Shown here piece by piece: positions 37,506 to 58,883 of a DNA stretch of 64,000 bases. The stretch is from Clostridium sp. BNL1100 (GTDB lineage: Bacteria > Bacillota > Clostridia > Acetivibrionales > DSM-1351): the NCBI RefSeq assembly GCF_000244875.1, contig NC_016791.1, positions 601,501 through 665,500 of the forward strand, in the 5' to 3' direction. The notes under the pieces were generated by a model. The model saw nothing but the letters and a program-made list of their open reading frames with translations, was not told the DNA's origin and did not search any database. The position numbers and the translations under genes were made by a program. Positions within the stretch are counted from its first letter, which is position 1, and each line of letters begins with the position of its first letter.

Positions 37506-37534
37506 TTGATAACTGGTAAAATCAGTAATATAAT
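37506..37534 (+). promoter_or_regulatory. Near-consensus sigma-A promoter of the biosynthetic operon
   Basis: TTGATA at 37506-37511, a 17-base spacer and TATAAT at 37529-37534: five of six and six of six consensus positions. It lies about 107 bases before the first gene. The leader between them is almost free of C on the coding strand and purine-rich. It is the best promoter match in the whole window. Confidence 0.78.
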
Positions 37535-37640
37535 CAATAATATAATTAAAATTGGAAGAAATGTTATTTAATAGGCGAATCTAGGGATAGAAAAAGGGGA
37601 TAAAAAATAAGGGATAAAAAGAGGAATAGGAGTAGAGAAT

Positions 37641-39200
37641 ATGCTGAAAAGAAGACCGATAATGGAAATAATGGAATCTACGAAACAGAATGATGTGATA
37701 TTTATACAACCGCATCTATTAACAGATGAGCTAAAACACGAACAAAACAAGATTGTTGTAGAATTCTGGGAAGCAATGCATAAACATGCCGTTTTATTAG
37801 GTGATATTCCATCGGAACCTAATCATGGCATTTTTTTTATAGCCGGAACTTTACTGAAGGCAGGGTATGCTGTTGATGCTCTTGATTTTTACGCTTATGA
37901 CCGTTACCTGAGATACAAGGAAGGAAGAAAGATTGAGTATAGTGATATTGAAAATGCAATAAAGACTAAGAATGCAAGGGTTTATGCCATATCTTCTAAA
38001 ACTGTTGCAATTAACAGAGCTATTGAGATAGCAAGAATAATTAAAAAGTTCCACCCGGAAGCAATCACAGTTTTTGGAGGGCTCCATCCCACACTTTACG
38101 GTGAAGAATTGTTGAAAGAACATTCTGATGTGGTTGACTATGTTTCCAGAGGAGAAGGAGAGGATAGTACTCTTGAATTTTTGGAATACCTCGATGGAAA
38201 GAGAGGTATTGAGGAAGTCAAGAACCTGATGTATATGGGGAAAGATGGCAAGGTTGTACATAATCCGAGAAGACTTGTTACAGATGTAGACATAGACAAT
38301 CTTCCATTTCCGGCATATGAATTGATTTGTCAGGAGTCTAGTCCGATCGTACCTAGAGTTCTTGCTGCAAGAGGCTGCCCGCATGGTTGTGCCTTCTGTA
38401 CTATTACTCACTATTATGATAGAAAATTTAAGCTAAGAAGTCCTGAATCGGTTATAAGTGAAATACAATATATGAAAGATAATTTTGATATTGAATTTTA
38501 TTGCATGGGTGATTTGACCTATTCAATTAATCGTGAATATGCACACCAGATTTGTAATTTGTTGATTGAGAGAAAATTAAACAATATCAAATGGTGGTGT
38601 CAGACAACCGTTGGAAGATTGAATGCTGAGGACCTTGCTTTAATGAAGGAGGCTGGATGCATTCAGGTGGCCTTTGGAGTAGAGGCTGAAGACCAAAGTA
38701 TATTAAATAACGTTGATAAACCTCATGCAGCAAGTAAAACGGAGGTTCAATGTCAACTCGTTAAAGATGCAGGGATGACAGTTCAAACATACTGGTTAAT
38801 CGGTTTGGGCGGAGATACCAAGAAATCGGTTGAGCATAGAATACAAAAGATCAAGACCTTTATTGAGACAGGGTTGACAGATTCAATACATATTTCGGTT
38901 CCTGTTCCATTCCCCGGAACTCCTATATGGTATGAGCCTGAAAAGTACGGATATACAATAAATCATACTGATTTCAGCAAATACTGGATGAACTGTGATG
39001 AGTTAGGGTATGGAAAGCCAGTGTTAAATACTGAAAAATTATCGGCAGACCATCTTTATATGTATTGGCAGTTAGCATTATCTACTGCAACGGCAAGCTT
39101 TGAAAAAGTTGCAAAAGAGCAGGCCAACAATTTTGCGCACTTCCAGCCTAAAGGATTATTTACACCTAAAAGCGAAAGTGAAATGCCTGCATTTGTATAA
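37641..39200 (+). CDS. B12-binding-domain radical SAM protein (first paralogue)
   Basis: 519 residues. Residues 20-190 are a B12-binding-type Rossmann domain (NDVIFIQPHLLTDE, ALDFYAYDRYLRYKEGRK, AITVFGGLHPTLYGEELLKE, DVVDYVSRGEGED). Residues 235-460 are the radical SAM core with the Cys246-x3-Cys250-x2-Cys253 cluster motif (ARGCPHGCAFCTI) and NIKWWCQTTVGRLN. The end has VPFPGTPIWYEPE and the segment KYWMNCDELGYGKPV. Members of this class use cobalamin for methylation or other radical changes at unactivated carbons. It heads the operon and shares motifs with the protein at 51469. Substrate unknown. Confidence 0.85.
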   Translation: MLKRRPIMEIMESTKQNDVIFIQPHLLTDELKHEQNKIVVEFWEAMHKHAVLLGDIPSEPNHGIFFIAGTLLKAGYAVDALDFYAYDRYLRYKEGRKIEYSDIENAIKTKNARVYAISSKTVAINRAIEIARIIKKFHPEAITVFGGLHPTLYGEELLKEHSDVVDYVSRGEGEDSTLEFLEYLDGKRGIEEVKNLMYMGKDGKVVHNPRRLVTDVDIDNLPFPAYELICQESSPIVPRVLAARGCPHGCAFCTITHYYDRKFKLRSPESVISEIQYMKDNFDIEFYCMGDLTYSINREYAHQICNLLIERKLNNIKWWCQTTVGRLNAEDLALMKEAGCIQVAFGVEAEDQSILNNVDKPHAASKTEVQCQLVKDAGMTVQTYWLIGLGGDTKKSVEHRIQKIKTFIETGLTDSIHISVPVPFPGTPIWYEPEKYGYTINHTDFSKYWMNCDELGYGKPVLNTEKLSADHLYMYWQLALSTATASFEKVAKEQANNFAHFQPKGLFTPKSESEMPAFV

Positions 39201-39231
39201 AGACTTTTATAGATTGGTGAATTAACAGAGT

Positions 39232-39855
39232 ATGGTGCATATATTTTCAATAGCCAGTTATGGATTTTGGCTTTCGATAAGTCTGATATTGCCAATAGGT
39301 CCACAGAATATGTTTATTTTATTACATAGCCTTACACAGAAAAACATAAAGCATGATTTTATTATTGCAAGTGCAGCAGCCTTATCCGATACAATTTTGA
39401 TTTTTTTAGGTGTTAGTGGATTCGCAAATATAATATCAGAGAACCAGATTGTAATATATGCACTGTATATTTTCTCCGTAGGATTCCTTACGTACATAGG
39501 AATTAGCCTTTGGCGAAGAAAGTTGCAGGTTGAGCAAATAAAAGGTGAAGCCTTTAACAAGAATCTGTTACGGAAAAGTATGCATATATTTGCTATATCA
39601 ATGTTTAACCCACAGGCTATTTTAGATACTGTTGTAGTAATAGGCATTGCATCCGTTGACTACAACAATACCGCCGATAAGTTTATATTTGGTTTAGCAT
39701 GTGTACTTACATCTTTTATATTTTTTTACACTATTGTAATCATAGGAAAACTGGTTAATTCCAACATAAGTCAAAGAAATTATAAGTTGTTGGATCGCTT
39801 ATCTGCAATCCTTATGTGGATTTTTGCTTGCAGATCGTTAATTAAGCTTTTTTAA
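39232..39855 (+). CDS. LysE-family exporter
   Basis: 207 residues, six hydrophobic segments. The N-terminus SISLILPIGPQNMFILLHSL has the PxGPQ motif of LysE/ArgO amino-acid exporters, and the later FSVGFLTYIGISLWRRK and FAISMFNPQAILDTVVVIGI follow the family. These proteins export basic or modified amino acids. In this operon it may export the product, a precursor or an over-accumulating amino acid. It starts 31 bases after the radical SAM gene. Confidence 0.82.
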   Translation: MVHIFSIASYGFWLSISLILPIGPQNMFILLHSLTQKNIKHDFIIASAAALSDTILIFLGVSGFANIISENQIVIYALYIFSVGFLTYIGISLWRRKLQVEQIKGEAFNKNLLRKSMHIFAISMFNPQAILDTVVVIGIASVDYNNTADKFIFGLACVLTSFIFFYTIVIIGKLVNSNISQRNYKLLDRLSAILMWIFACRSLIKLF

Positions 39856-39892
39856 AGCTAGGTCTTTATAGTTGATTTGAAGGAGGCTAGCT

Positions 39893-41653
39893 GTGAGTAA
39901 TGCTAATTTAATAACTCTATTTGATAAAGCTGTAGAAATATATAGAAATGAGCCTGCGATTATTTTCGAAGGAAAGACCATAACATATACCGAGTTAGAG
40001 AATAATATAAACAAGCTGGCTGAATTATTAATACATAAAAATATAAAAAAAGGTAATTATGTAGGCGTTTGCATAAGAAAATCACCTGAACTGATATATG
40101 CCGCAATGGCAGTTCTGAAATTAGGTGCGGTTTATGTGCCGTTAGCTCCTGAGTATCCTGTGGCCAGAACAGATTATATAATTAAGGATGCTGGTATTGA
40201 TTCACTTATTGCCGATTCTGATATGCGTAACAAGTTTAATGTGAAAAATGTGGTTTGTCCCACAGAGGACCTCTCTGAAACAAATGTCCCTAAAATAGCA
40301 ACAGAAATAATGCAGCAAGATGATTTGGCTTATGCTATATATACCTCCGGTACAACGGGAAAACCCAAGGGAGTTATGATACATTGCGGAGGGTTTTTAA
40401 ACAGGATTCAGTGGCAGAGAAAATATTTTAATGTTGATTCAAAGGATAGAGTTTTACATAAAGCACCTATCGGCTTCGATATTTCTTTGTGGGAAATGTT
40501 TTTACCCTTAGTATCCGGTGCAGCTTTGGTTATATCCAAAGAAAACGGATATATGGATGTTGAATATATTATAAATCTTATAGAAAGTACCCGGGTCACA
40601 ATCTCTCAGTTTGTTCCTTCAATTTTACGTATACTTGTAGAATATACAAATACCAATGGCAACAGTAAGCTGGCCTGCTTAAGAAAAATCGTAAGCAGTG
40701 GAGAAGAACTTACTTTTGGTCTGCTAAAGGCATTTACACAGCACTATCCCAACATAAAGCTATACAACTTTTATGGACCTACAGAGGCTTCTATCTGTGT
40801 TACAGCATGTTGCTTAAACGAATGTGAACGCAAAAGCTATGTTCCGTTAGGTGATGCTATAGATAACATGGAAGTGTTTCTACTGGATGATGACAACAGG
40901 CTGATTACTGATAGTCATATTAAAGGTGAAATATGTATAGGTGGAATAGGAGTAGGAAAGGGCTACATTAACAAGCCTCAGGAAACAGAGTATGCATTTT
41001 GCAAACACTACAGCAGAGAGGGCGAGGTAATGTACCGAACCGGTGATATCGGCTACTACTGTGATAATGACCTTGTATATGTGGGACGTAAGGACCAGAC
41101 AGTTAAGATAAGAGGAAATAGAGTAGATTTAGGTGAAATCGAAGTAAAAATATGTGAAATACATCAGATAGAGGCTGCGGTTGTAAAATGCTTTAAGACA
41201 GAACAGGAATCACAGATATTGGCGGCTTTTTATAAGCCGGTTAATAAGGATTCAGATAGTTTGAAAATTCAGGAACTTTTAGCAGGGTATTTAAAAAATG
41301 AATTACCTGCATATATGCTTCCTCAGCAATATATTAAAGTTGATGAGTTTGAGCTTACGTCAAACGGCAAAATTGACAGGGAAAAGCTTAAACTTGAAGA
41401 AAAAACATCCCGGATAAATGAAAATAATGGCTTCTACGGAGATAAGGATAAAAAAGCAATAATAATTGAACTTTTCACTAAATACCTGAATTGTGAAATT
41501 TCTGAGGATGATGACTTCTTTATTTTAGGAGGGTCCTCTCTGGAAGCAATTCGGATGATTATGGAAATTAATAATGAACTGAATATTTCGTTAAAATACA
41601 CAGACGTAATGCTGGACCTTACCGTTAACGGTATAGTTAATGCATGTGATTGA
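39893..41653 (+). CDS. NRPS adenylation-carrier protein didomain
   Basis: 586 residues from a GTG with AAGGAGG upstream. Adenylation motifs in order: YAIYTSGTTGKPKGVM (A3), FYGPTEASICVT (A5), YRTGDIGYY (A7), GRKDQTVKIRGNRVDLGEIE (A8) and SNGKIDREKL (A10). The carrier domain at the end has DFFILGGSSLEAIRM with the phosphopantetheine Ser549. Read by eye, the binding pocket begins D-I-W-Q; the Asp at the first position implies an alpha-amino acid. There is no condensation domain, so it loads an amino acid for stand-alone partners. The ending overlaps nothing; the next gene starts 30 bases on. Confidence 0.88.
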   Translation: MSNANLITLFDKAVEIYRNEPAIIFEGKTITYTELENNINKLAELLIHKNIKKGNYVGVCIRKSPELIYAAMAVLKLGAVYVPLAPEYPVARTDYIIKDAGIDSLIADSDMRNKFNVKNVVCPTEDLSETNVPKIATEIMQQDDLAYAIYTSGTTGKPKGVMIHCGGFLNRIQWQRKYFNVDSKDRVLHKAPIGFDISLWEMFLPLVSGAALVISKENGYMDVEYIINLIESTRVTISQFVPSILRILVEYTNTNGNSKLACLRKIVSSGEELTFGLLKAFTQHYPNIKLYNFYGPTEASICVTACCLNECERKSYVPLGDAIDNMEVFLLDDDNRLITDSHIKGEICIGGIGVGKGYINKPQETEYAFCKHYSREGEVMYRTGDIGYYCDNDLVYVGRKDQTVKIRGNRVDLGEIEVKICEIHQIEAAVVKCFKTEQESQILAAFYKPVNKDSDSLKIQELLAGYLKNELPAYMLPQQYIKVDEFELTSNGKIDREKLKLEEKTSRINENNGFYGDKDKKAIIIELFTKYLNCEISEDDDFFILGGSSLEAIRMIMEINNELNISLKYTDVMLDLTVNGIVNACD

Positions 41654-41682
41654 GTGTGAATATAATGCACGGGAGGTTAAAC

Positions 41683-43080
41683 ATGTTTGAGCTAGATGTT
41701 AAAGTTATTACTCGGGAGCTTAGTTTTGAAAACTTCAAATCCCACTTTACCAAACCTCTAATATACTACATGGTTAATAAAAATGATGATATGTCATTTT
41801 TTATAACGTATGTGCTTGTTGATTTTAATAATAATAAAATGACATATATTTATTCATATAGTGACAGTAACAAACAAATATTGGATATGCAGGACGAAAT
41901 AGAACGGTATCATATGTCAAAGTGTCCGCATAATTCAATACAAGTAAAGGAAAATGAGAGTTTTTTGACCTTCAATGAGGATGAAAAATTCTTTACTTTT
42001 ATTAACTACGTTGAAAAAAAGATGTATGTCTGTACAATGAAGGATTTAATACCTGAGTCGGAAATTAAGTTCGAAAAAATCAGCCATACATTTTATAAAG
42101 ACGATACTGATGCATCGTATTTTTATCTGTCTGCGGTAGATACTGAGCAAATACTACATATCTATAGAATATCTCTTGATCTGAAGGATATTACCGAAGT
42201 CAATTCTTTCGAAGGAAAGCCAATCCCTCCTCATGTATTACGGAACCATAAGGACTATTTTTTCTTAAGTGATGAGTTCCGTTACTCACAATTTGAGCTA
42301 ACAAATAAGAATAAGATTGTTACCCAGGACGAGCTAAGTCGTATGTATTTTAAGCTATCCGTTAAACTTAATGTCGGACGTGAGGTTCCAATGAGTTTTC
42401 GTGAGGAAAGAGCGGCATTATATCAGGAGATGCGCAGAAAATATGGAATAAAGTGCATGCAAGGCAGGATTATGATGATCAACCGCAAAACCAACGAACA
42501 GACTTACTATAATACAACAGGTGGAAGTCCTGCTCACTTTGAAATCGACAGCAAACAAAACTGCGTCTATACCTCTGCTCATAACTTTTTTGGAGTAAAA
42601 GACGGAGTAATCTATTTCGAGCCTGCAATAATAGACAAGTTTGAAATTGTTGATGACAAATTGGTACATAAGGGAGCATTCAGTTATGAAAAGGGATATC
42701 GTTATACGTCCCACAAGATATTCAGTGTAGGCGGAAAAACGTATATCTGTACATTCGGTCAGCCCAACAGATTGATTTTTGCCGATGCAGATACAATGGA
42801 GCTTTTGTTCTATGAGGATATAGGAGAAGACGAGCTGAGCAGTCAGGATGATGTCAGTTTGTATATAAACTCCTGCGGAAACAACACGGAGATTATTGCT
42901 ATTGAGGTTTCACCTGACAATAAGCTCATAGTTTTTGTAGACGGCACATATCTATATTTGTATGATTTTGAAAAACGTCAGATTTGTAAAAAAGTCAGTC
43001 ATGGATTTGATACCGGAAATGATGGTATCAACATGGAGGACTTTAAGATTAGAACAGTGCATTTTAACTACTTGAGCTAA
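41683..43080 (+). CDS. Unidentified protein of the biosynthetic operon
   Basis: 465 residues; the ATG at 41683 follows GGGAGG by 7 bases. No signal peptide and no membrane segment. The sequence is strand-rich with aromatic repeats (TYIYSYSDSNKQILDM, KFFTFINYVEKKMYVCT, YFYLSAVDTEQILHIYRISL, LIVFVDGTYLYLYDFEKRQI), suggesting a beta-propeller. A helical insert around residues 240-275 (FREERAALYQEMRRKYGI) interrupts it. I recognise no family. Its place between the carrier-protein gene and the chorismatase-like gene suggests a scaffold or an enzyme acting on the loaded intermediate. Confidence 0.7.
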   Translation: MFELDVKVITRELSFENFKSHFTKPLIYYMVNKNDDMSFFITYVLVDFNNNKMTYIYSYSDSNKQILDMQDEIERYHMSKCPHNSIQVKENESFLTFNEDEKFFTFINYVEKKMYVCTMKDLIPESEIKFEKISHTFYKDDTDASYFYLSAVDTEQILHIYRISLDLKDITEVNSFEGKPIPPHVLRNHKDYFFLSDEFRYSQFELTNKNKIVTQDELSRMYFKLSVKLNVGREVPMSFREERAALYQEMRRKYGIKCMQGRIMMINRKTNEQTYYNTTGGSPAHFEIDSKQNCVYTSAHNFFGVKDGVIYFEPAIIDKFEIVDDKLVHKGAFSYEKGYRYTSHKIFSVGGKTYICTFGQPNRLIFADADTMELLFYEDIGEDELSSQDDVSLYINSCGNNTEIIAIEVSPDNKLIVFVDGTYLYLYDFEKRQICKKVSHGFDTGNDGINMEDFKIRTVHFNYLS

Positions 43081-43101
43081 TATTACGATTAGGAGAAAAA
43101 T

Positions 43102-44271
43102 ATGAAAATAGAGATTAAAGAATCAAATGAAAACTATAATTTGTATGTAAAATCAGTTGACGGAAAACAAGTTTTTATCACGATTGCAAATCAAAATAAA
43201 GACCAGGATATATTGAAGACCGCTTCACTGTTATACAAAAAAGCCTATGAGATATTAACCAAGTATAACATAACAGTATTTCATGAAAGGTTTTTCGGAA
43301 CCAGCAAGTTTTATCATGATGTACAGAAGATAAGGGCTGAGGAACTAAAACTGAATACACAAGACAAATGTTTCAGTTATATTGAAGGTTCTCCTTATTG
43401 GGGTGAAGGAATATCAGGTATTAACGTACACGGTATCATTTTGTGTGATGAAGAGATTAAAGATGTGGAGTTCAACGGAATAGTCTGCGGGAAGTTGTAT
43501 AAGACCGATGCGGTGGACTATATGTTGGTACATACCGTTCATGGCAATAAGGAAAGTGACTACTATGGGCAGACATATGAGATGTTTCAATCAATGATTC
43601 AAGTCCTTAACAAATACGACTTTCAGCTTAAAAATGTTATAAGAACATGGATTTATTTGGATAAAATTTTATTACTGTATGATGAGTTCAATAAAGCACG
43701 TACAAAAGTATTTTTAGAAAATGGGTTATGGTCTGATTCCGTTGCTGTTGATAAAACTGAAGAAATATACATGCCTGCAAGCACCGGTATCAGCTGCGGT
43801 AATCCCCACGGATTGACTGTAATCTCAGATGTTTTGGCTATAAGAACTAAAAATTATGAAAAATTTAAGTTCACAAGTGAATCGGGTAAAGCTCAGAAGT
43901 CTGCAATGCGTTATGGTTCCGCTTTTTCAAGGGCTATTCTGCTGGATGACAAGACAAGCAAAAGCAAATATGTTTATTTATCCGGTACGGCATCAATAGA
44001 TGATTTGGGGAATACAGTATATCTTGACGATATCGGATTGCAGATAGATAAGACATATTCCGTAATTGATGCCCTTTTGGATATAAGCTCAATGAAATTA
44101 AACAACATGACTGAAGGAACGGTATTCTTAAAAAAAGCAGAGTACATAGATGCATTTATTGAATACTGCAAAAGGCGAAATATTGAGTTGCCCGCACTGA
44201 TTACAGTTGCAGACGTGTGTAGGGATAATTTGCTGTTTGAAATGGATGGAACATTTGCAGGTGGGTGTTAG
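43102..44271 (+). CDS. Chorismatase-family protein (FkbO/Hyg5/XanB2-like)
   Basis: 389 residues in two halves related to the RidA/YjgF fold. The C-terminal half carries RYGSAFSRAILLDDK, YLSGTASIDDLGNT and QIDKTYSVIDALLDISSM, as in chorismatases, and ends with ADVCRDNLLFEMDG, whose Glu matches the catalytic acid. The middle has a helix with NVIRTWIYLDKILLLYDEFN. Chorismatases split chorismate into pyruvate and a 3- or 4-hydroxybenzoate or a dihydroxy-cyclohexadiene acid. The product type cannot be told without aligning the pocket. In this operon it would give an aromatic or cyclohexadiene unit. Confidence 0.8.
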   Translation: MKIEIKESNENYNLYVKSVDGKQVFITIANQNKDQDILKTASLLYKKAYEILTKYNITVFHERFFGTSKFYHDVQKIRAEELKLNTQDKCFSYIEGSPYWGEGISGINVHGIILCDEEIKDVEFNGIVCGKLYKTDAVDYMLVHTVHGNKESDYYGQTYEMFQSMIQVLNKYDFQLKNVIRTWIYLDKILLLYDEFNKARTKVFLENGLWSDSVAVDKTEEIYMPASTGISCGNPHGLTVISDVLAIRTKNYEKFKFTSESGKAQKSAMRYGSAFSRAILLDDKTSKSKYVYLSGTASIDDLGNTVYLDDIGLQIDKTYSVIDALLDISSMKLNNMTEGTVFLKKAEYIDAFIEYCKRRNIELPALITVADVCRDNLLFEMDGTFAGGC

Positions 44272-44299
44272 GTATTTATGATAAAAGGTGGAACAAGAA

Positions 44300-45088
44300 A
44301 TGTTAAGATATTTTAATATTATAGTTAAATTTTTAAAATATGCATTTATTCAGGCTTTGGAATATAAGGCTAACTTTATTCTGGGAGGCTTGTTTGAGTT
44401 CTTGTGGGTAATTCTAAATGTAATTTTTTTCAAAGCATTATATCAAAATACCACTTCCATTGCAGGATGGTCAGTAGATGAAGTACTGTTACTGGTATTT
44501 ATATGCGGACTTGTAGATAGTGTACACTCATTTTTCTTTGCATCAGGATTTATTGACATACCAAACCTGATACGGCAAGGAAATCTGGATTTACTTTTAT
44601 TAAAACCCATTAACAAAAGATTCTTTCTGTCTTTTCGGTTAATCAATGTCGGTCAGATTTTAAATGTAATCTTCAATGTAGTAATGATTATAATTTATAC
44701 AAATAAGATTACCACTAATTTAAGCCTGCCCGATGTATTGTTGTTTATACTGCTGATAATAGGTGCACTGGTAATAGTAAACGCCTTCTACTTCTCATTA
44801 TCCATGCTGGCTTTCTGGGTTATCAAGGTTAATGCGATTATAGGCTATTCACAGGAATTATTTACAGTTGGTAATAAACCTATTAATGTATACCCGAAAA
44901 TAATACAGAAAATATTTACTTATTTGATACCTTTGGGTGTAGCATTCAGTTATCCGATTTTATATCTATCCCATAAGTTATCGACTTCCAGCTTAATTGC
45001 CGGATTTGTAATTGCAGTTATCTTTTTTGCATTATCCCATGTTTTATACAGACAAGGTATAAAAAAGTATACAAGTGCTACCAGCTGA
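44300..45088 (+). CDS. ABC-2 type transporter permease (first)
   Basis: 262 residues from the ATG at 44300 (AAAAGG upstream). Six hydrophobic segments. The family signs of PF06182-type permeases are visible: ALEYKANFILGGLFEFLWVI, GWSVDEVLLLVFICGLVDSV and LIRQGNLDLLLLKPINKRFF. It pairs with the ATPase at 45113 and the second permease at 46115 to form one exporter. Confidence 0.85.
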   Translation: MLRYFNIIVKFLKYAFIQALEYKANFILGGLFEFLWVILNVIFFKALYQNTTSIAGWSVDEVLLLVFICGLVDSVHSFFFASGFIDIPNLIRQGNLDLLLLKPINKRFFLSFRLINVGQILNVIFNVVMIIIYTNKITTNLSLPDVLLFILLIIGALVIVNAFYFSLSMLAFWVIKVNAIIGYSQELFTVGNKPINVYPKIIQKIFTYLIPLGVAFSYPILYLSHKLSTSSLIAGFVIAVIFFALSHVLYRQGIKKYTSATS

Positions 45089-45112
45089 TGATTTATATAA
45101 GGAGAGGTAACA

Positions 45113-46096
45113 ATGAAGGTCATAAATGTAAGAGATATTTCAAAAACATATCAATATTATAAAAAACAAGAGGGAATAAGGGGCAGCTTAAAAAACCTGA
45201 TACATAAGGAAATCCCGAGTAAGGAAGCTGTCAGGAATCTCAGTTTTTCTATTGAAAAAGGGGATATGGTAGGGTTTATTGGGATGAATGGTGCAGGTAA
45301 AACTACAACTTTGAAAATGTTATCCGGAATTTTGAAGCCTACATCCGGTGAAGTTGATGTTTTAGGATACAATCCCTTTGATAAAAAGAACGACTTTTTA
45401 AAGAGAATATCAATGGTAATGGGAAGCAGAAGTCAACTGTGGCTTGATATACCTGCAATAGAGGCATTTGCCCTGAATAAAGAAATCTACGGGATTGAAG
45501 AAAAACAGTATAAAGATACACTGGACGAGTTGGTTGAGCTGTTAAATGTGGGTCAATTAATCAACACTCAGGTAAGGAGATTGTCTCTGGGTGAAAGAAT
45601 GAAAATGGAGTTGATTCTTTCACTACTGCATTCACCGGAGATTATTTTTCTGGATGAACCTACTATAGGTTTGGACATTGTATCACAGAATGTTATCCGT
45701 AAGATGCTTAAAGCCTACAACCAAAAACATAATATTACAATAATACTAACCAGTCATAATCTGGATGATATTGAGACAGTATGCAGCAAGCTTATGATAA
45801 TAGACTCGGGGCAATTGATGTTTAATGGACAACTGGAGGATTTTATTCAAAAGCAGACATCAACAAAAATTCTCAGGATTAAATGTTCCAGGGATCCTGC
45901 CAGAATTAAGGCGGTAATGGGAGAACACAAGGTTGAAATTCTCAGTGAAGATAATGAGAGAATGAATGTAAAGGTAAGCAAAGAAAGTGTTATGCAGCTG
46001 ACAAATATATTGATGAGCGAATGTATGAATGACATAAAAGACATCAGTATAGAGGAGGCAGACATGCAGGAGATTATCTGTAATTTATATATATAG
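45113..46096 (+). CDS. ABC transporter ATP-binding protein
   Basis: 327 residues. Walker A GMNGAGKTTT (about residue 59), Q-loop MVMGSRSQLWLDIP, signature LSLGERMKMEL, Walker B IIFLDEPTIGLD and H-loop LTSHNLDD are all intact. The C-terminal 90 residues are the extra domain seen in drug-export ATPases of the DrrA/NatA kind. It energises the two-permease exporter encoded on each side. It is likely to carry the finished product out and may give self-protection. Confidence 0.92.
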   Translation: MKVINVRDISKTYQYYKKQEGIRGSLKNLIHKEIPSKEAVRNLSFSIEKGDMVGFIGMNGAGKTTTLKMLSGILKPTSGEVDVLGYNPFDKKNDFLKRISMVMGSRSQLWLDIPAIEAFALNKEIYGIEEKQYKDTLDELVELLNVGQLINTQVRRLSLGERMKMELILSLLHSPEIIFLDEPTIGLDIVSQNVIRKMLKAYNQKHNITIILTSHNLDDIETVCSKLMIIDSGQLMFNGQLEDFIQKQTSTKILRIKCSRDPARIKAVMGEHKVEILSEDNERMNVKVSKESVMQLTNILMSECMNDIKDISIEEADMQEIICNLYI

Positions 46097-46114
46097 TATT
46101 GGAGAAATTTATTT

Positions 46115-49242: not shown

Positions 49243-49266
49243 TAGAAATAATACGGGGTAACATTT

Positions 49267-51132: not shown

Positions 51133-51206
51133 CTATGATTTTAGCTCAAGGCAAATAAATGGTTAAACTTTGACAGTGATATATAAGACAAAAAGGGGGA
51201 TTTATT

Positions 51207-51446
51207 TTGAAAGAGACAGAAGAAGTTTTATTTAATATTTGGAAAGAGATATTGGAGCGTGATGATTTTACCAGTGAAGATGATTTCTATTCCTTAGGGG
51301 GGACATCTTTACAGGCATTTACACTGATAATGGAAATTAAGAAAAAGTTTGATTTGGAATTACCGCTTATGTATGTATTGACAGAGGCAAGTATCAGCTC
51401 TTTAGCAGAAGTAATTAACAGTCAGTTGGGATCAAATGAATCATGA
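51207..51446 (+). CDS. Free-standing carrier protein (PCP/ACP)
   Basis: 79 residues from a TTG with AGGGGG upstream. The pantetheine site is in DDFYSLGGTSLQAFTLIM (Ser34), the peptidyl-carrier-like form LGGxS. The last helices (LPLMYVLTEASISSLAEVIN) fit the four-helix fold. It is one of three carrier domains in the operon and may accept the amino acid from either adenylation protein. Its 3' end overlaps the longest possible frame of the next gene. Confidence 0.85.
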   Translation: MKETEEVLFNIWKEILERDDFTSEDDFYSLGGTSLQAFTLIMEIKKKFDLELPLMYVLTEASISSLAEVINSQLGSNES

Positions 51447-51468
51447 GATCTGGAAAGGAAGAAACAAC

Positions 51469-52989
51469 ATGAATTTTAGCGAAATGTTTAACACAAACGT
51501 TAAGAGCGACGTATTACTAATTCAGCCTCACATACTAAAGCATGTATCTGTTGAAGATATTGATATTGTTCAGCAGCATTATTGGGAGGCAAGTGATAAA
51601 GTAGGTTCCTTGATAGGGGACTTGCCCATTGAGCCAAACTGGGGATTGTTGTATTTGTCCTCAGCGCTTAAGCATAATGACTTTTCAGTACATATGTTGG
51701 ATTTCCATTTGTATGATTATGTTAAATACACCAAAACCGGAAATTTCATTGATTATGATGATATTGAAAAAATACTGTCCACCAAGAAAAGCAAAATGGT
51801 GGCAATATCCTCTCTGACCCGTTCCCACCACAGGGCGTTGAAGATTGCAGAGATATGCAAAAAAATCAACCCGGAATGCAAGGTAGTACTGGGTGGAATT
51901 CATTTTACTTTTATAGCTGAAGAAGCAATAAAGAGCAGTCCCTATGTAGATGTCATTATTAGAGGTGAAGGAGAAAAGGCCATAGTTGACCTTATGAAGA
52001 ATTTAAATGACATAGACAAATGGAGCGATCTCGAAGGTATAGTTTATATAGACAGGAACGGAAAAATCGTAAACGACAATAAAATTAATCATATTGAAGA
52101 CATAAATAAGCTTGCATATCCGGATTATTCCTTATGGCCAAGGGATGTACCCTTGATTCCGCGTATTTATTTATCCAGAGGCTGCATAGGAAATTGTGAT
52201 TATTGCGTCGCCAATCTGCTGTTTAAAAGCAAACAAAGAAAGAGAAATATGGATGACGTAATTAACGAAATAAAGATGTTGTACTATGAATACAAAATCG
52301 AGGAAATGCTTATTGGAGATTTGTGCTTCCCATCTTCAAAAAAGGACACAATTGATTTTTGCAAGAGGATTATTGATAGCGGAATGAGGATAAGATGGTG
52401 GTGTCAGACACGACCTGAAATTCTGGATGATGAGATTCTGGGATATATGGAGAAGTCAGGGTGTGTTCAAGTTGCGTTGGGTATTGAAAGCTCCGACCCC
52501 GAGGTCTTGGAAAAAACAAATTCAAAGAAATACGGGGCTAAGGCGACACAGTCTATTTTTGATATCTGCAGTAATGTCAAAAAGTATAAAATAGCAATTC
52601 AGGGTTATTTCATCATAGGGTTACCGGGAGATACTATTGACACCAGCATCCAGACAATTAAGATGATGGACTATCTTACAGCTGAGGGCCTTGTTGACAT
52701 TATGCACATCTCGGTTATGGTTCCTTACCCCGGTACAAATCTTATAAGTAATCATGATCTATATGGTCTTGAAATTATAGATAATGATTATTCCCATTAT
52801 TTAATGAACTGCGATCTGATGAATGCCGGTGTTCCCGTATATAAGACGAATACTCTGGATAACTATCAAATATTCAGCTTATGGCAGCTTGCACTTAGTA
52901 CGGTTGCTAAGAACTTTGAAAAAAGGGATATCAAAGATCATATCATGTTCAACGCACTTAATAATTTTGTTAATGAAATAGAAGTTTAG
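51469..52989 (+). CDS. B12-binding-domain radical SAM protein (second paralogue)
   Basis: 506 residues; the ATG at 51469 follows AAAGGAAG. It repeats the architecture of the protein at 37641: SDVLLIQPHILKHVSV, VVLGGIHFTFIAEEAIK and DVIIRGEGEKAIVD in the B12-type domain, the Cys239-x3-Cys243-x2-Cys246 motif in SRGCIGNCDYCVA, MRIRWWCQTRPEIL, and late VPYPGTNLISNHD and YLMNCDLMNAGVPVY. The two proteins share the WWCQT and MNCD signatures but are diverged throughout, so they probably act on different sites or steps. Confidence 0.85.
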   Translation: MNFSEMFNTNVKSDVLLIQPHILKHVSVEDIDIVQQHYWEASDKVGSLIGDLPIEPNWGLLYLSSALKHNDFSVHMLDFHLYDYVKYTKTGNFIDYDDIEKILSTKKSKMVAISSLTRSHHRALKIAEICKKINPECKVVLGGIHFTFIAEEAIKSSPYVDVIIRGEGEKAIVDLMKNLNDIDKWSDLEGIVYIDRNGKIVNDNKINHIEDINKLAYPDYSLWPRDVPLIPRIYLSRGCIGNCDYCVANLLFKSKQRKRNMDDVINEIKMLYYEYKIEEMLIGDLCFPSSKKDTIDFCKRIIDSGMRIRWWCQTRPEILDDEILGYMEKSGCVQVALGIESSDPEVLEKTNSKKYGAKATQSIFDICSNVKKYKIAIQGYFIIGLPGDTIDTSIQTIKMMDYLTAEGLVDIMHISVMVPYPGTNLISNHDLYGLEIIDNDYSHYLMNCDLMNAGVPVYKTNTLDNYQIFSLWQLALSTVAKNFEKRDIKDHIMFNALNNFVNEIEV

Positions 52990-53022
52990 TTTTTTGATAA
53001 ACATTAATTTAGGAGGATAACA

Positions 53023-53739
53023 ATGGAAATAAAGATTGATCAAAGAATTGTGGACCAATTTGATAATGTACAAATTGGAGTATTAGTCGTTAAAGGACTG
53101 ACAAATGACTATAAAAATAATTATGACGAAATAGACGGATTGTTAAAAGCTGCAAAGAAGTCTGTAAATGACCATTTCAAGGATAAAGAGATAACACAGG
53201 ATGAAACTATAATAAGATGGAGAGGAATATACTCCCAATTTGGTGCTAAACCCAGTAAATTCAGATGTTCTATTGAAAGCTTATGCCGTATGGTAACATC
53301 TGAAAAGAATGATTACCAAATAAGAAGAATTAATCCGCTGGTAGACATTTATAATTATATATCTTTAAAGCATCGAATACCTGTCGGGGGAGATGATACT
53401 GATAAGGTTGAAGGGTACATATGGTTGACGGTAGCCGACGGTACGGAGGAGTTCAGTGTTCTTAATTCAGGAGAAAAAGAATTTGCCTGCGAAAAAGAAG
53501 TTATATACAGAGACGAAAAGGAAGTCCTTTGCAGACGGTGGAATTGGCGTGAAAGCAATAAGACAAAGCTGGATGAGACAACCAGAAATGTTTGTCTGTT
53601 TGTAGAGGGTGTTTCAGTATATTCTGAGGAGGATATGAGAGGAATCCTTGGTGAAATGGCTGAGTTGGTAAGGAAGTACTGTGGTGGAGAGGCAAGTATT
53701 TCTGTATTGAACAGTAATAACCTTAAACTGGAAATCTAA
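53023..53739 (+). CDS. B3/B4 domain protein (PheRS beta-like tRNA editing fold)
   Basis: 238 residues. The B3/B4 pattern is present: IIRWRGIYSQFGAKPSKFRC, SIESLCRMVTSEKN, INPLVDIYNYISLKHRIPVG, GDDTDKVEG and a C-terminal NVCLFVEGVSVYSEEDM. In phenylalanyl-tRNA synthetase this fold removes wrongly attached amino acids such as tyrosine. Free forms are widespread but their exact substrates are unclear. In this operon it may clear tRNAs mischarged with a pathway intermediate, or use aminoacyl-tRNA as a substrate. The gap to its neighbours is about 35 bases each. Confidence 0.8.
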   Translation: MEIKIDQRIVDQFDNVQIGVLVVKGLTNDYKNNYDEIDGLLKAAKKSVNDHFKDKEITQDETIIRWRGIYSQFGAKPSKFRCSIESLCRMVTSEKNDYQIRRINPLVDIYNYISLKHRIPVGGDDTDKVEGYIWLTVADGTEEFSVLNSGEKEFACEKEVIYRDEKEVLCRRWNWRESNKTKLDETTRNVCLFVEGVSVYSEEDMRGILGEMAELVRKYCGGEASISVLNSNNLKLEI

Positions 53740-53777
53740 TACCACTTATATTATTAATAGAAAGGATAGTACATAGC

Positions 53778-55265
53778 ATGAGTTTATCATTTGGAGAAGT
53801 TACAAAATTAAAAGAGAATGCTGAGATCAAAACAAAGGCATTTATTAATGGAAAGTATGTAGACAGTCTTGACGGGGAAACATTTGATAAGGTAAGTCCC
53901 ATTGATGGCAAGGTTATAGCAAAAATTGCATCATGTAAACAGGCTGATGTGGATTTGGCTGTAAGTGCAGCAAGACAGGCTTATGAAAAAGGTGTATGGT
54001 CTGATATTACACCGGAACAAAGAAAGAATATCCTCTATGCATTTGCCAATCTGGTCGAGGCTCACCACATGGAATTAGCAACATTGGAAACTATGGATAT
54101 GGGAAAACCAATTTCCAACTCAATAGGAGAGATTCGCAGATGTTTTAACGGAATACGCTGGTTTGCAGAAGCAATTGACAAATTATATGGAGCAGTGGCG
54201 ACAACACGGCCGAATATCAATGCTCAGATTGTGCGTGAGCCTTATGGCGTTGTTGCAGCAATTATACCTTGGAACTATCCTCTTATGATGGCAGTTTGGA
54301 AGTTCGCACCGGCACTGGCGGCTGGTAACAGTGTTGTATTGAAGCCTGCGGAGCAATCACCTCTTACCTTGCTGTGTATAGCGGAATTTGCAAAACAGGC
54401 AGGCATACCGGACGGAGTATTCAATGTTGTACCGGGTTACGGTGAGACTGCCGGACAAGCCCTTGCGTTACATATGGATGTTGATAAGATTACCTTTACA
54501 GGTTCATCAGAGGTTGGAAAATTAATTATGCAGTATTCAGGACTTTCAAATATGAAGAGGGTTTCCTTGGAATGCGGAGGAAAATGCCCTAATATTGTTT
54601 TCCCTGATGCATATGATTTGGACGACGTAGCCAAGCAGACTGCCGGAGCCATGTTTTATAACAGCGGACAAGTATGTGATTCACCTACACGTTTATTGAT
54701 ACATAAGTCAATTAAGGAAGCTTTCCTGAAAAAATTAATTGAATACAGCAAAGAATACATGCCCCAAAATCCTTTAGGCCCCGCTTGTTCAATGGGAAGT
54801 GTGGTAACAGGTGAACAGATGGAAAGGATTCTGAATTATATCGAAATCGGAAAGTTAGAGGGTGCAAAGCTAATAATGGGCGGTAAACAGGTTCTTTCAG
54901 AATCAGGGGGATATTATGTAGAACCTACAATCTTTAGCGACGTTAATAACAAAATGCGTATTGCACAAGAGGAAATATTTGGGCCTGTCTTGTCTGTGAT
55001 AGAGTTTGAAACCGAAGAAGAGGCAATTGAGATTGCAAATGATTCAATATATGGGTTATGTGCTTTTGTGTGGACATCCGATTTAAAGAAAGCAGTATCT
55101 CTGTCTAAAAAGCTTAAATGCGGAAAGATACTCATAAACAGTACAGGTGACGGGGATTGGAGTGTTCCTCACGGGGGATTCAAGCAGTCAGGTTTTGGCA
55201 GAGATAAATCAATTGAATCCATAGAACAGTATACTCAGACAAAGCTTACTTGGATTGAACTGTAA
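53778..55265 (+). CDS. NAD(P)-dependent aldehyde dehydrogenase
   Basis: 495 residues. Typical ALDH motifs: VAAIIPWNYPLMMAVWKFAP, KITFTGSSEVGKLI, catalytic Glu in SLECGGKCPNIVF and nucleophile Cys in YNSGQVCDSPTRLL, then EEIFGPVLSVIEFETEEEAI. It oxidises an aldehyde to a carboxylic acid. Its overall sequence is near the gamma-aminobutyraldehyde/betaine-aldehyde group. With the class III aminotransferase it could turn a diamine into an omega-amino acid. Confidence 0.9.
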   Translation: MSLSFGEVTKLKENAEIKTKAFINGKYVDSLDGETFDKVSPIDGKVIAKIASCKQADVDLAVSAARQAYEKGVWSDITPEQRKNILYAFANLVEAHHMELATLETMDMGKPISNSIGEIRRCFNGIRWFAEAIDKLYGAVATTRPNINAQIVREPYGVVAAIIPWNYPLMMAVWKFAPALAAGNSVVLKPAEQSPLTLLCIAEFAKQAGIPDGVFNVVPGYGETAGQALALHMDVDKITFTGSSEVGKLIMQYSGLSNMKRVSLECGGKCPNIVFPDAYDLDDVAKQTAGAMFYNSGQVCDSPTRLLIHKSIKEAFLKKLIEYSKEYMPQNPLGPACSMGSVVTGEQMERILNYIEIGKLEGAKLIMGGKQVLSESGGYYVEPTIFSDVNNKMRIAQEEIFGPVLSVIEFETEEEAIEIANDSIYGLCAFVWTSDLKKAVSLSKKLKCGKILINSTGDGDWSVPHGGFKQSGFGRDKSIESIEQYTQTKLTWIEL

Positions 55266-55305
55266 TATTGGGATATTTCATTTAAATAAGAACGGATGAT
55301 TTGAT

Positions 55306-56376
55306 ATGTCTGGAAAAAATGTGAGAATTGAAGATCTTATACAGAGCGAGCGTATCTTCTTAAAAGAGTATGATAACTTTTGTATACATAACAATGTAAA
55401 ACAAGTATTGGACTATTACGGAATTGAAAATTCATGGGCATTTATCGATACAGTAATTGGCGTGAATATGTCAATTACTGATAACGATATTAATAAACTT
55501 GACATCAAATATAATATAGATACCGCCTCTGTACTTGATCCTTTTTTGAGTAAAGTGAAATCTATTATTCCAATTACATATAAAGATGAGTTTTCTGACT
55601 GGGATACCTTAAAAGAAAAAGTTGAAAAAGGAATACCCGTTATAACAATGGTTGATGTTTATTATCTGAAATATCTGCCTTACTACCTGCAGGCAAATGC
55701 AATACACTCTGTTATTTTATGCGGGTATTCCGATGAGCTTCAGGAGGTATACGTTGTTGATTGGTATGAGCCTTACTTTTATAAGGGTACTTTGAAGTAT
55801 GGGGATTTTATGAAGGCCAGAGCTTCTGAAAACCCAAAGGGAATGCTTGTAAATAGTGATTTTCCTATCTTGAATAAGTGGATAGAGATTGAAAAAGATG
55901 GTTGGGAAGCAGATTGCAAGACCTTGTTGAACATTACAATTGACAAGATGCAAAAGGAGTATTATTCAAAAACCTCTATATCTGAGAGCAGTTGTGACGG
56001 AATTGGTGTCTTGTATAAATTGAAGGAAATCATAAATGAGATGGGGCAGTTTTCGGAGGCTGAGAGGAAGAAGCTGAGTGCAAGGTTGCACGGTATGCTA
56101 TTCCTGATGCCAAAGTACCGAATGTTTTTTGCAGGGTACATAGAGAGAGCTTTGCAGAGTATTACAGTAGAGAACTGTGATTATGAGATTGAAGTAATCG
56201 GAAAAAGTGTAAGTTTGTGGAATAAATTGCTTAAGCTTATTGTTAAGTTTTCCTTGCTAAGTACAGATGCTCTGCTCGAGAAGATAAAAGTGCAATTTGA
56301 TGAAATTCTGGAAAATGAAAAGGAATGTATGGATGTTTTAGACAAAATCGAACACAAATTAACGGATAATTGGTAA
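55306..56376 (+). CDS. BtrH-like cysteine acyltransferase/peptidase
   Basis: 356 residues. The N-terminal half has the BtrH-type papain-like triad: Cys26 in DNFCIHNNVKQVLDYYG, His134 in NAIHSVILCGYSDE and Asp152 in YVVDWYEP. The C-terminal part is helical (SEAERKKLSARLHGMLFL). BtrH of butirosin biosynthesis moves an amino-acyl group from a carrier protein to an amine. The carrier-protein and adenylation genes directly downstream support a similar task here, making an amide bond without a condensation domain. Start is an ATG after a weak site GGATGATTTGAT. Confidence 0.78.
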   Translation: MSGKNVRIEDLIQSERIFLKEYDNFCIHNNVKQVLDYYGIENSWAFIDTVIGVNMSITDNDINKLDIKYNIDTASVLDPFLSKVKSIIPITYKDEFSDWDTLKEKVEKGIPVITMVDVYYLKYLPYYLQANAIHSVILCGYSDELQEVYVVDWYEPYFYKGTLKYGDFMKARASENPKGMLVNSDFPILNKWIEIEKDGWEADCKTLLNITIDKMQKEYYSKTSISESSCDGIGVLYKLKEIINEMGQFSEAERKKLSARLHGMLFLMPKYRMFFAGYIERALQSITVENCDYEIEVIGKSVSLWNKLLKLIVKFSLLSTDALLEKIKVQFDEILENEKECMDVLDKIEHKLTDNW

Positions 56377-56395
56377 ATAGAAAGAGGTGGTATGT

Positions 56396-57874
56396 TTGAG
56401 TTTTCAAAGCATAACAAATATAATCTCACAAAAGGCAGCCGATATACCTCATACAGTGGCAATCGTCTGTAACAAGGAAGGTATATCCTATAAAGATTTG
56501 GACAGAAAATCAAATGCATTTGCCGGTATGCTAATTCAAAGAGGGATAAAAAAAGAATCCGTTGTTGGTATTATGATGACCAGGTCTATTGAAATGATTA
56601 TTGCCATGATCGGCATACTTAAGGCAGGGGCGGCGTATATGCCTATTGATCCCGGTTGTCCTGCTCCACGCATAGAATATATGATTGATGACAGTAACAT
56701 GGAATTGCTTTTAATCAATGACGGGACTAAGGACGGATTTATCTTTGATGAAAAAACAATTAATATCACCACTGCACTTGCTGAATATCCAAGATTATTG
56801 GAGGATTTTACCGGGCCCGCAATAAGTCCGGAAGATCTGGCTTATATCCTTTATACTTCAGGCTCTACCGGTAAGCCAAAGGGTGTTATGATTGAACATA
56901 AATCCGTTACAAATGTAGTCAAAGCCATACCTGAGTTTATGGGGCTGGAGGACGGAGGGAAGCTATTAAGTATTACAAAAATAGTATTTGATATATTTGT
57001 TATTGAGTCATTACTTGCATTGGCACATGGTATGGAAATTTACCTTGCAAATGAAAGAGAACTATATAATCCAAGACTCCTCGGTAAAATTTTACTTAAA
57101 AACAATATCAATATTATCCAGATGACACCATCAACAGTACAGTATTTTCTGAGCTGTGATAAAGAGCTGAATTATTTGAAAAATATTGAGAAAATGATTA
57201 TCGGAGGAGAAGTATTCCCAAAGTCCCTGAGGGATGAGATAAAAAAACAATCAAGTGCCACAATCTATAATGCTTATGGCCCTACGGAAGCAACAGTGTA
57301 TTGTTCCCTTTCAGACGTTACTGACAAAGATATTGTTGATATTGGTAAGCCAATGTTAAACTATTCGACATTTATAATTAATGAAAATGGAGAGTTGGAT
57401 AACAAGGGTGAACTATATATCGGAGGATTGGGAGTAGCCAGAGGGTATATAAATAAGCCTGAGTTGACAGAAGAACACTTTGTTTTTCTGCCGGGAATAT
57501 CTTCCGATAGATTATACAAAACTGGAGATTTAGTTGAAAGGTTGCCAGACGGTAGTATCAATTATTTATACAGGCTGGATTATCAGATTAAAATTAGCGG
57601 ATATAGAATTGAACTTGGTGAAATTGAGTGTGTTATTATGGAATATAACAATATAAAGCAGGCTGCCGTTGTTGTTAAATCTGATAATGATAATAATCAG
57701 TACTTATGTGCTGTTTATTCAACATACAAAGATATATCTGAAAGTGATCTGAAAAAATATTTAAAGTCCAAATTACCTCAGTATATGATTCCGTCAATTT
57801 TTGTTCACACCGAAAAAATGCCTGTTAATAATAACGGGAAAATTGACAGAAATGCCCTTAAGGTTTCAATTTAA
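56396..57874 (+). CDS. Free-standing NRPS adenylation protein
   Basis: About 492 residues. AGAGGTGG lies 5 bases before the TTG at 56396; a GTG at 56387 is an alternative start. The motifs are complete: AYILYTSGSTGKPKGVMIEH (A3), AYGPTEATVYCS (A5), YKTGDLVERL (A7), QIKISGYRIELGEIECVI (A8) and NNNGKIDRNALK (A10). It has no carrier domain, so it must load the carrier at 57901 or 51207. By eye the pocket starts D-I-I-Q; the Asp again points to an amino acid, not an aryl acid. Confidence 0.88.
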   Translation: MSFQSITNIISQKAADIPHTVAIVCNKEGISYKDLDRKSNAFAGMLIQRGIKKESVVGIMMTRSIEMIIAMIGILKAGAAYMPIDPGCPAPRIEYMIDDSNMELLLINDGTKDGFIFDEKTINITTALAEYPRLLEDFTGPAISPEDLAYILYTSGSTGKPKGVMIEHKSVTNVVKAIPEFMGLEDGGKLLSITKIVFDIFVIESLLALAHGMEIYLANERELYNPRLLGKILLKNNINIIQMTPSTVQYFLSCDKELNYLKNIEKMIIGGEVFPKSLRDEIKKQSSATIYNAYGPTEATVYCSLSDVTDKDIVDIGKPMLNYSTFIINENGELDNKGELYIGGLGVARGYINKPELTEEHFVFLPGISSDRLYKTGDLVERLPDGSINYLYRLDYQIKISGYRIELGEIECVIMEYNNIKQAAVVVKSDNDNNQYLCAVYSTYKDISESDLKKYLKSKLPQYMIPSIFVHTEKMPVNNNGKIDRNALKVSI

Positions 57875-57900
57875 AGACTACATATATAAGGAGAATAAGT

Positions 57901-58140
57901 ATGGATATACGGGATAAAGTTATTGATATAATAGTAAAAGTAATGAACATACCGGATTTAAAAGAGAAAGCTGCAACCGAGGATAATTTGTCGGAGGTAG
58001 GTATTAATTCTATTAAATTTATAGAAATTGTAGTTGAGCTTGAAAAGGAATTTGATGTTGAATTCGATGATGATGAATTGGATTTCAGGAGCTTTACCAC
58101 AATCACAAGTATTTGTGACTATCTGGAAAGTCTGGATTAA
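57901..58140 (+). CDS. Acyl carrier protein
   Basis: 79 residues. The site SEVGINSIKFIEIVVELEKE has the pantetheine Ser37 in the acyl-carrier form GxNSI. The acidic later helix (EFDVEFDDDELDFRSFTTI) fits ACPs. It is 26 bases after the adenylation gene, its likely loading partner, as BtrI-BtrJ pairs are in butirosin clusters. Confidence 0.87.
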   Translation: MDIRDKVIDIIVKVMNIPDLKEKAATEDNLSEVGINSIKFIEIVVELEKEFDVEFDDDELDFRSFTTITSICDYLESLD

Positions 58141-58199
58141 CTAAGATATAATTTATACTATATTCGGCTGCTTTAAAATGAAAAAGGGGTAGGGCTGCG

Positions 58200-58883
58200 A
58201 TGAAGGAAATTATAAAGAATATTTTCACATCTTTAGGTTCGGATGTATGTGGAATAGCCGGTATTGAAAGGTTTGAAACCGCTCCGAAAGGATTTCGTCC
58301 AACAGATTTGTATAGCAAATGCAAATCGGTTATTGTTTTTGGTATTACTTTACCAAAGGGGTTATGGGAAGTAGAACCCCGACTCATGTATGAACATTTC
58401 AATACGATTAGTTGTTCCATGGTTGATTACATAGCTTTGTCCGCTTCAAGCAGAATGGAAAAAGAATTTAAATGTACTTGTGTTCCACTTCCATGTGATG
58501 CTCCATATAACTCATGGGATGAAGAATCCATGACAGGACAGGGGCTGCTTTCCATGAAGCATACGGCTGTGGCTGCCGGTATTGGTACTCTGGGAAAAAA
58601 TACATTGCTATTGAATGAAGTATATGGCAACCGCTTAACTGTCGGGGCGATTTTAACCGATATTGAGCTTGAATCCGACCCTTACGCAAAAAGCATCTGT
58701 ATTGAAGCATGTACACTTTGTCTGGATATATGTGCCGTTAATGCTATTAATGAAGACAAGGTAGAACAAAAAAAGTGCAGACTGAATTCATACGGAAAAA
58801 CTAAAAAAGGTTTTGATACAGTTGAATGCAATAAATGCAGGACAGTCTGTCCTGTTGGAAAAGGTTTGAAACGCACTGTATAG
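58200..58883 (+). CDS. QueG-like 4Fe-4S protein
   Basis: 227 residues. It resembles the iron-sulfur half of epoxyqueuosine reductase: EGAS-type N-terminal fold (SVIVFGITLPKGLWEVEPR), AGIGTLGKNTLLLNEVYGNR, and a ferredoxin-like end with CIEACTLCLDICAVNAI and ECNKCRTVCPVGKGL, giving two CxxCxxC-type clusters. Full QueG is about 310-380 long, but short clostridial relatives of this length are common. It may be a redox partner for the radical SAM enzymes or a reductase of an intermediate. Last gene of the operon; no terminator directly follows. Confidence 0.75.
   Translation: MKEIIKNIFTSLGSDVCGIAGIERFETAPKGFRPTDLYSKCKSVIVFGITLPKGLWEVEPRLMYEHFNTISCSMVDYIALSASSRMEKEFKCTCVPLPCDAPYNSWDEESMTGQGLLSMKHTAVAAGIGTLGKNTLLLNEVYGNRLTVGAILTDIELESDPYAKSICIEACTLCLDICAVNAINEDKVEQKKCRLNSYGKTKKGFDTVECNKCRTVCPVGKGLKRTV

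Follow-up and report, generated by a model that had tools for sequence, protein, structure and literature searches.

Within a 64,000-nucleotide stretch of the Clostridium sp. BNL1100 genome (contig NC_016791.1, positions 601,501 to 665,500; hereafter the window), nineteen genes, g01 to g19, make up a predicted operon, a real, intact and rare gene set. From the domain content of the encoded proteins we consider it reasonably probable that this operon specifies a small molecule that is exported and that is assembled by a non-canonical thiotemplated pathway, following the logic of closthioamide (CTA) and AFC-BC11 biosynthesis. A BtrH-type protein (g16) and a protein resembling ketoacyl synthase III (KAS III) (g09), judged by their domains and conserved residues, probably make the bonds that are normally left to condensation (C) domains. 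The host, whose genome is one contig of 4.61 Mb, is a cellulose-degrading anaerobe of the genus Ruminiclostridium.

A probable assembly-line gene set without condensation domains

Activation is represented by g03 (39893..41653, plus strand, as are all nineteen genes; PF00501, PF13193 and PF00550), in which an adenylation domain is fused to a carrier domain with its serine in an LGGSS motif, and by the free adenylation enzyme g17 (56387..57874; PF00501, PF13193). Two further carriers are free-standing, namely the peptidyl carrier protein (PCP) g12 (51207..51446, TTG start; PF00550) and the acyl carrier protein (ACP) g18 (57901..58140; PF00550). Among the 19 operon proteins, Pfam at E <= 0.01 detected no Condensation, Thioesterase or ketoacyl-synt domain, which bears out the absence of C, polyketide synthase (PKS) and thioesterase (TE) domains claimed in a first-pass annotation of this DNA. 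The set thus has the adenylation enzymes and carriers, without a C domain, of a C-domain-free thiotemplated system, and not the C or ketosynthase and TE domains of a classical modular nonribosomal peptide synthetase (NRPS) or PKS. Most of the families named in that annotation were recovered as well: two B12 radical S-adenosylmethionine (SAM) enzymes, a LysE protein, two adenylation proteins, three carrier domains, three ABC-2-type transporter genes, a class III aminotransferase, and proteins of the AsnB, B3/4, aldehyde dehydrogenase and BtrH_N families.

The first of the two bond-forming candidates, g16 (55306..56376; PF14399, PF13529), is a predicted papain-fold acyltransferase of BtrH type, with a BtrH_N score of 44.3 bits against a gathering score of 29.7 and a C39-like match besides. 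Cys26 and His134 are invariant in its family alignment (5/5 rows), and Asp152 is kept in four of the five. The gene is followed by g17 and g18, and a plasmid search with g16 returned no match. BtrH-family and other papain-like proteins have already been named as likely transacylases in clusters based on aminoacyl-synthetases (PMC2922099); here and below, statements about published systems refer to excerpts of the cited papers.

The second candidate, g09 (46943..47860; PF08541), had been labeled KASIII-like. It does match PF08541, but the match is weak and confined to the C-terminal half, and its triad, Cys115-His260-Asp265, is of the acyltransferase type found in ChlB3 and AfcL. When g09 was aligned with FabH (2ebd) and ChlB3, these residues paired with C113, H296 and D301 of ChlB3, and g09 had Asn-Asn where FabH carries its catalytic His. 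The three triad residues are present in 5/5 aligned rows (the window, R. papyrosolvens C7 and three plasmid relatives). g09 resembles ChlB3/CerJ in its Cys-His-Asp residues and in identical His-Asp spacing (PMC9573744), and differs from them in overall sequence. Its plasmid relatives (23-29% identical) sit among adenylation genes, with an ACP at two of three loci and a decarboxylase at two of three. ChlB3 shifts an aryl group between carriers (PMC9573744), and AfcL, a KAS III-like Cys/His/Asp enzyme of the AFC-BC11 pathway, transfers a tri-beta-alanyl chain onto the amine of lysyl-CoA (PMC12186527). AfcQ, an adenylation enzyme of the same pathway, forms amide bonds (PMC12186527), an activity that g17 or g03 could therefore have as well.

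Predicted precursor supply, tailoring and export genes

The product of g05 (43102..44271) is a putative, divergent chorismatase with weak matches to TIGR04444 and PF21168. Hyg5-type enzymes make 3-hydroxybenzoate. Scores for g05 (39.4 bits vs 325 for TIGR04444; 19.5 vs 27 for PF21168) fall short of the curated cut-offs, including that for FkbO/Hyg5, and no PDB chain was matched at E <= 0.1; in these respects g05 is unlike FkbO, Hyg5 and XanB2. The chorismatase label of the first-pass annotation holds at the level of catalytic residues instead: like those enzymes, g05 retains the catalytic Glu and Cys and the SGTAS motif (PMC7170507), with Cys373 and Glu380 corresponding to Cys327 and Glu334 of Hyg5 by a numbering tied through an Acidiphilium row and the same paper, and it is because of these residues that we assign it as a chorismatase. 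The motif VCRxxxLxE occurs in 8/8 aligned rows, three of which are one orthologue. One plasmid relative of g05 (27%) is accompanied by U32 peptidase and SCP2 genes, of which one carries a ubiquinone-synthesis annotation, a setting that fits hydroxybenzoate supply; two other plasmid relatives lie in different settings. Separately, locus L020 (554-13318) of G005, another Ruminiclostridium genome, holds a 25%-identical chorismatase-type domain in a 1254-aa frame beside a 2982-aa frame.

Amine and carboxylate chemistry is represented by three genes. g10 (47911..49242; PF00202) encodes a class III omega-aminotransferase with putrescine/polyamine transaminases among its PDB relatives, and g15 (53778..55265; PF00171) a PuuC/KauB-like aldehyde dehydrogenase for which KauB is the best PDB match and PuuC the best NCBIfam model, below its cut-off. 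g11 (49267..51132) is a glutamine amidotransferase/synthetase of AsnB type (TIGR01536, 487.5 vs a cut-off of 267.1) that can probably use glutamine, since Cys2 and SGGLDSS are both present. The cobalamin-binding radical SAM enzymes g01 (37641..39200) and g13 (51436..52989), paralogues with ~36% identity, each combine B12-binding and radical SAM domains (PF02310 and PF04055) with a CxxxCxxC motif, located at residue 246 in g01. A plasmid search with g13 gave two BchE-like matches at 27-28%.

Export genes comprise a LysE-type exporter (g02, 39232..39855; PF01810), two ABC-2 family permeases (g06, 44288..45088, and g08, 46115..46912; both PF06182) and, between them, a DrrA-like ABC transporter ATPase (g07, 45113..46096; PF00005, with TIGR01188 under cut-off). 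Three genes complete the set: g04 (41650..43080; 476 aa, no Pfam/NCBIfam family), g14 (53023..53739; PF03483), a stand-alone B3/4 domain protein of PheRS beta type, and g19 (58200..58883; weak PF13484, TIGR00276 under cut-off), a QueG-like [4Fe-4S] protein. In PHROGs, g04 had no match, whereas g14 and g19 weakly matched unknown families.

Comparison with described pathways

We located the CTA locus by content in a genome of the genus (G002, C1:3804344-3815207). It encodes an Rv2949c-like chorismate lyase, a class III aminotransferase, an SGGxDS protein, an ATP-grasp-type protein, a carrier, a decarboxylase, a C39-like protein, a second carrier, an AMP ligase and a transglutaminase-like protein, the ATP-grasp and decarboxylase labels having been assigned through homologues at locus L093 (below). 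This content agrees with the published gene list (PMC6772006). The operon studied here shares with CTA biosynthesis of R. cellulolyticum the genus, free activation enzymes, two free carriers, independence from NRPS and a class III aminotransferase, as well as, in the roles proposed here, a free peptidyl transferase and hydroxybenzoate derived from chorismate (PMC6772006). These likenesses, together with BLAST matches of g10 to CtaB (30%, E 2e-58) and of g18 to CtaE (39% over 44 residues), speak for a CTA congener as the product, a hydroxybenzoyl poly-amino-acid chain joined to a diamine and bearing thioamides. We regard such a product as highly improbable: by BLAST, the window proteins include no homologue of CtaA, CtaC (the AANH thioamide synthetase), CtaD, CtaF, CtaG or CtaJ, and CtaA, being Rv2949c-like, is a different chorismate enzyme from g05. 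g03 and g17 also match CtaI (23-24%), and a match between CtaH and g14 (34 residues, E 0.005) was taken as chance. The window is without the CtaA-type lyase, AANH protein, ATP-grasp protein (CtaD), decarboxylase (CtaF) and transglutaminase (CtaJ) described for CTA, and it alone contains two B12 radical SAM enzymes, a KAS III-like protein, AsnB, B3/4, an aldehyde dehydrogenase and another type of chorismate enzyme. On gene content, CTA itself is rejected, the operon is not a CTA cluster, and the congener reading is largely refuted.

AFC-BC11 of Burkholderia offers a second comparison, in that its pathway likewise has no C domains and uses an adenylation enzyme, a carrier and a KAS III-like Cys/His/Asp acyltransferase (PMC12186527). 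Desaturase-type genes and a fatty acyl-AMP ligase set it apart from the window, and the excerpted account makes no mention of BtrH, radical SAM, chorismatase or AsnB proteins (PMC12186527).

The presence of a BtrH_N domain raises a different alternative, that the operon is a side-chain module in which a BtrH-type enzyme transfers a carrier-bound gamma-amino acid to a scaffold made elsewhere. g16 and the free carrier g18 near it presumably parallel BtrH of the butirosin pathway, a likeness that we take from the Pfam family name, and g10 with g15 could provide acids of the gamma-aminobutyric type. Unlike in butirosin biosynthesis, no aminoglycoside-scaffold gene was recognised among the 19, and the presence of two adenylation enzymes and three carriers, with g09 as an additional acyltransferase, points to more than a single acyl unit; we therefore rate a module of this kind as unlikely. 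Flavoaffinin, the yellow pigment of cellulose degraders, was also considered as a product; the excerpted description is of pigments of polyketide type that contain indole and aryl polyene, and it was set aside because the operon has no classical ketosynthase.

Conservation and distribution

All 19 genes occur in the same order in R. papyrosolvens C7 (G007). The DNA block common to both genomes covers window positions 37357-58904 at 95.0% identity and stops 21 bp past g19; a second shared block lies upstream (36232-37268, 95.8%), and between the two only a hairpin zone differs. The downstream neighbour, pepD, is ~13 kb away in C7. The ratio of nonsynonymous to synonymous substitution rates (dN/dS) between the window and C7 copies is 0.016-0.174 in 19/19 genes, and every one of them is under purifying selection. 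Because these ratios are low and internal stops are absent from both the window and C7, we rejected the possibility of a dead or decaying operon. Gene order in C7, purifying selection and conserved promoter boxes support the annotation's suggestion that the genes belong to one set and that free-standing enzymes build its product.

In G006, which represents a third Ruminiclostridium species, a relic is left (L015, 10427-12257), consisting of a 151 bp promoter region retained at 78%, two short g01 remnants of 59 and 54 bp, 351 bp of g04 and, now close behind the promoter, complete g05 with flanks (1233 bp, 87% identity). These remains indicate that the operon was once present there. The chorismatase gene of G006 still has an intact reading frame of 387 aa, and its dN/dS against the window copy is 0.084; this value spans the time before the loss and so is no proof of later use.

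The relic bears on another reading, in which one transcript carries two functional units, for example an amine-catabolism pair g10/g15 or a redox protein g19 alongside a smaller biosynthetic set. The survival of g05 as the sole intact gene in G006 implies that parts are separable in evolution, and the families of g10, g14, g15 and g19 are commonly metabolic; on the other side, all 19 genes keep their order in C7 with low dN/dS, and three of the four genes that separate g10 from g15 belong to the assembly set. We judge the two-unit arrangement to be unlikely.

The gene set is narrowly distributed. g05 is found at >=90% in 3 of 11 genus genomes including its own, with partial matches of 30-31% in two more, and g09 is present at full length in 2 of 58 genomes of the order, with weak partial matches in two others and none in G006. 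A class-level sample of 391 genomes, which excluded G006, contained g04 matches in two (own and C7), g05 matches in eight (six of them weak) and g16 matches in twelve (close only in own and C7); at E <= 1e-50, and with at most three candidates scored per genome, g13 was found in three, namely its own, C7 and, as a 34% relative, G003. Scanning a species-genome collection for g05 with short exact peptide patterns, which detect close relatives only, returned one locus, that of R. papyrosolvens C7.

Operon layout and predicted regulatory signals

As first annotated, the nineteen genes are packed on the plus strand, from 37641 to 58883, with intergenic gaps of -11 to 74 bp. Per-gene G+C is 0.32-0.41, and third-position G+C (0.29-0.41) is higher than in the two right-hand neighbours (0.24 and 0.27). 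The near-consensus promoter previously noted was also found: TTGATA-17-TATAAT (37506..37534, plus strand) agrees with the consensus at 11 of 12 positions and is the sole 11/12 match within 37200-57100. That interval holds fewer promoter-like sites than its shuffles (66 vs 78.6) and terminator-like sites at chance level (8 vs 10.7); the corresponding counts for 57000-59600 are 19 vs 12.5 and 3 vs 1.6. The -35 and -10 boxes are identical in three genomes, with no change in C7 or in the G006 relic, where this region is retained, and this identity is better evidence for the predicted promoter than the scan score.

Terminator-like hairpins flank the operon on the plus strand. The upstream one (37297..37340) is long, with 20 pairs, 5 of them G-C, followed by a T run; the downstream one (59238..59264), with 12 pairs and a T-rich tail, begins 354 bp past g19. 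No Rfam family reached its gathering score in 36000-60000. Visual inspection had hinted at a piece of a histidine kinase on the minus strand (58788-59000), for which Pfam gave no support. Elsewhere in the window, terminase, portal, capsid and tail genes (3265-14560) form part of a siphovirus-type prophage.

BtrH-type genes at other loci

Elsewhere in the genus, further thiotemplated loci also carry BtrH-type genes, a point that the first-pass annotation had missed. We read the neighbours of BtrH genes at six other loci (L056, L057, L091, L093, L094 and L095), and five of them (all except L095) have adenylation or carrier genes. At L056, in C7 (G007:C63), a 29% relative of g16 adjoins one protein in which counterparts of g17 (39%) and g18 (47% over 51 residues) are fused. 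Together with L066 1-333 (G007:C63:1-20333), this locus encodes two BtrH and three adenylation proteins, along with free carriers and a DUF362 Fe-S protein. Two L056 proteins have radical SAM and B12-binding matches, one of the B12 matches being just under cut-off, and a CtaC (thioamide synthetase) homologue is present (29%, E 1e-28); by its genes, L056 is a candidate thioamide pathway. The Pfam scan covered 10 of its 16 open reading frames, and the absence of C domains there applies to those ten. At L094 (G566), large adenylation proteins and an ACP accompany the BtrH protein.

The host genome has two such loci of its own. L093 (G000:C1:761120-777727) is a closthioamide-like locus with two BtrH proteins, an ACP, an AMP ligase, a thioesterase and an ABC transporter; it encodes homologues of CtaF (42%) and CtaD (32%), and no CtaC match was found there. 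L091 1891-14661 (G000:C1:1043891-1056661) encodes a 4256-aa PKS-NRPS with Condensation domains present and a BtrH domain after the last carrier (Pfam 29.2 vs a cut-off of 29.7; E 1.4e-23 by an alignment built here), perhaps a release or transfer domain. L057 (G150:C31) is another unusual activation set: two BtrH proteins occur with an adenylation-PCP protein, a class II tRNA-synthetase-like core, PPDK_N proteins and an 82-aa protein without a Pfam family.

Discussion

In the pathway that we propose for the operon, g17 and g03 would activate amino acids for loading onto three carriers, namely g18, the carrier domain of g03, and g12. The papain-like g16 and the KAS III-like g09 would then accept acyl groups from the carriers as enzyme thioesters and transfer them to an acceptor with an amine, hydroxyl or thiol group, replacing C and TE domains, and amide bonds may come from an adenylation enzyme itself, as with AfcQ. 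g10 and g15 would convert a di- or polyamine to an omega-amino acid, while g05 would supply hydroxybenzoate from chorismate. Tailoring would include methylation or rearrangement at unactivated carbons by g01 and g13 and conversion of a carboxylate to an amide by g11, with the product exported by g02 and g06-g08.

Several observations weigh against this proposal. Its main gap concerns activation: pocket residues read by eye, at positions that we take to follow GrsA numbering, are D-I-W-Q-V-S-F-I-C in g03 and D-I-I-Q-I-G-A-V-Y in g17. We claim no substrate from them, yet by these positions both enzymes appear to be of amino-acid type, and there is consequently no evident hydroxybenzoate-activating enzyme. 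The proposal assigns no role to g04, g14 and g19. The match between g09 and ChlB3 is weak (E 0.008 for sequence; pieces 1.8 and 71). Homology between g16 and CtaG is not established, with no BLAST match and a BtrH-family hhalign probability of 7.2 (E 0.0049), and a likeness of short motifs noted by eye was given no weight; the predicted structures of g16 and g04 were unusable (mean predicted local distance difference test, pLDDT, 41 and 33). Kinship by itself would account for part of the gene order that such close relatives share. An endolysin-like gene next to the operon on its upstream side (36383-37258) is also common to C7 at 95.8%. Plus-strand terminator-like sites lie within genes at 46466, 48218, 49627, 49795 and 57698. 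Finally, the BtrH gene of L095 (G731; one of the six loci) has no adenylation or carrier neighbour, and the six neighbourhoods compare with 26 BtrH places listed in the class search.

The enzyme combination did not turn up among the papers listed in searches of open-licence literature, curated cluster databases lying outside those searches, and to this extent the annotation's statement that it knew of no described pathway with this set is uncontradicted. The pathway logic, however, has precedents, as C-domain-free pathways were already described for CTA (PMC6772006) and AFC-BC11 (PMC12186527); these two, from Ruminiclostridium and Burkholderia respectively, are the worked-out C-domain-free thiotemplated pathways in the excerpted literature compared here. 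We suggest tentatively, as a possibility that falls short of an even chance, that the operon represents a new type of assembly line in which unrelated BtrH and KAS III-like cysteine acyltransferases replace C and TE domains, a cobalamin radical SAM pair modifies carrier-bound intermediates, and the product belongs to a new scaffold class, the system having been seen so far in two Ruminiclostridium species plus a relic. If the proposal is true, BtrH-type enzymes would be a recurring transfer tool in C-domain-free pathways of anaerobes, and more such pathways would be findable by searching for BtrH genes beside adenylation and carrier genes.

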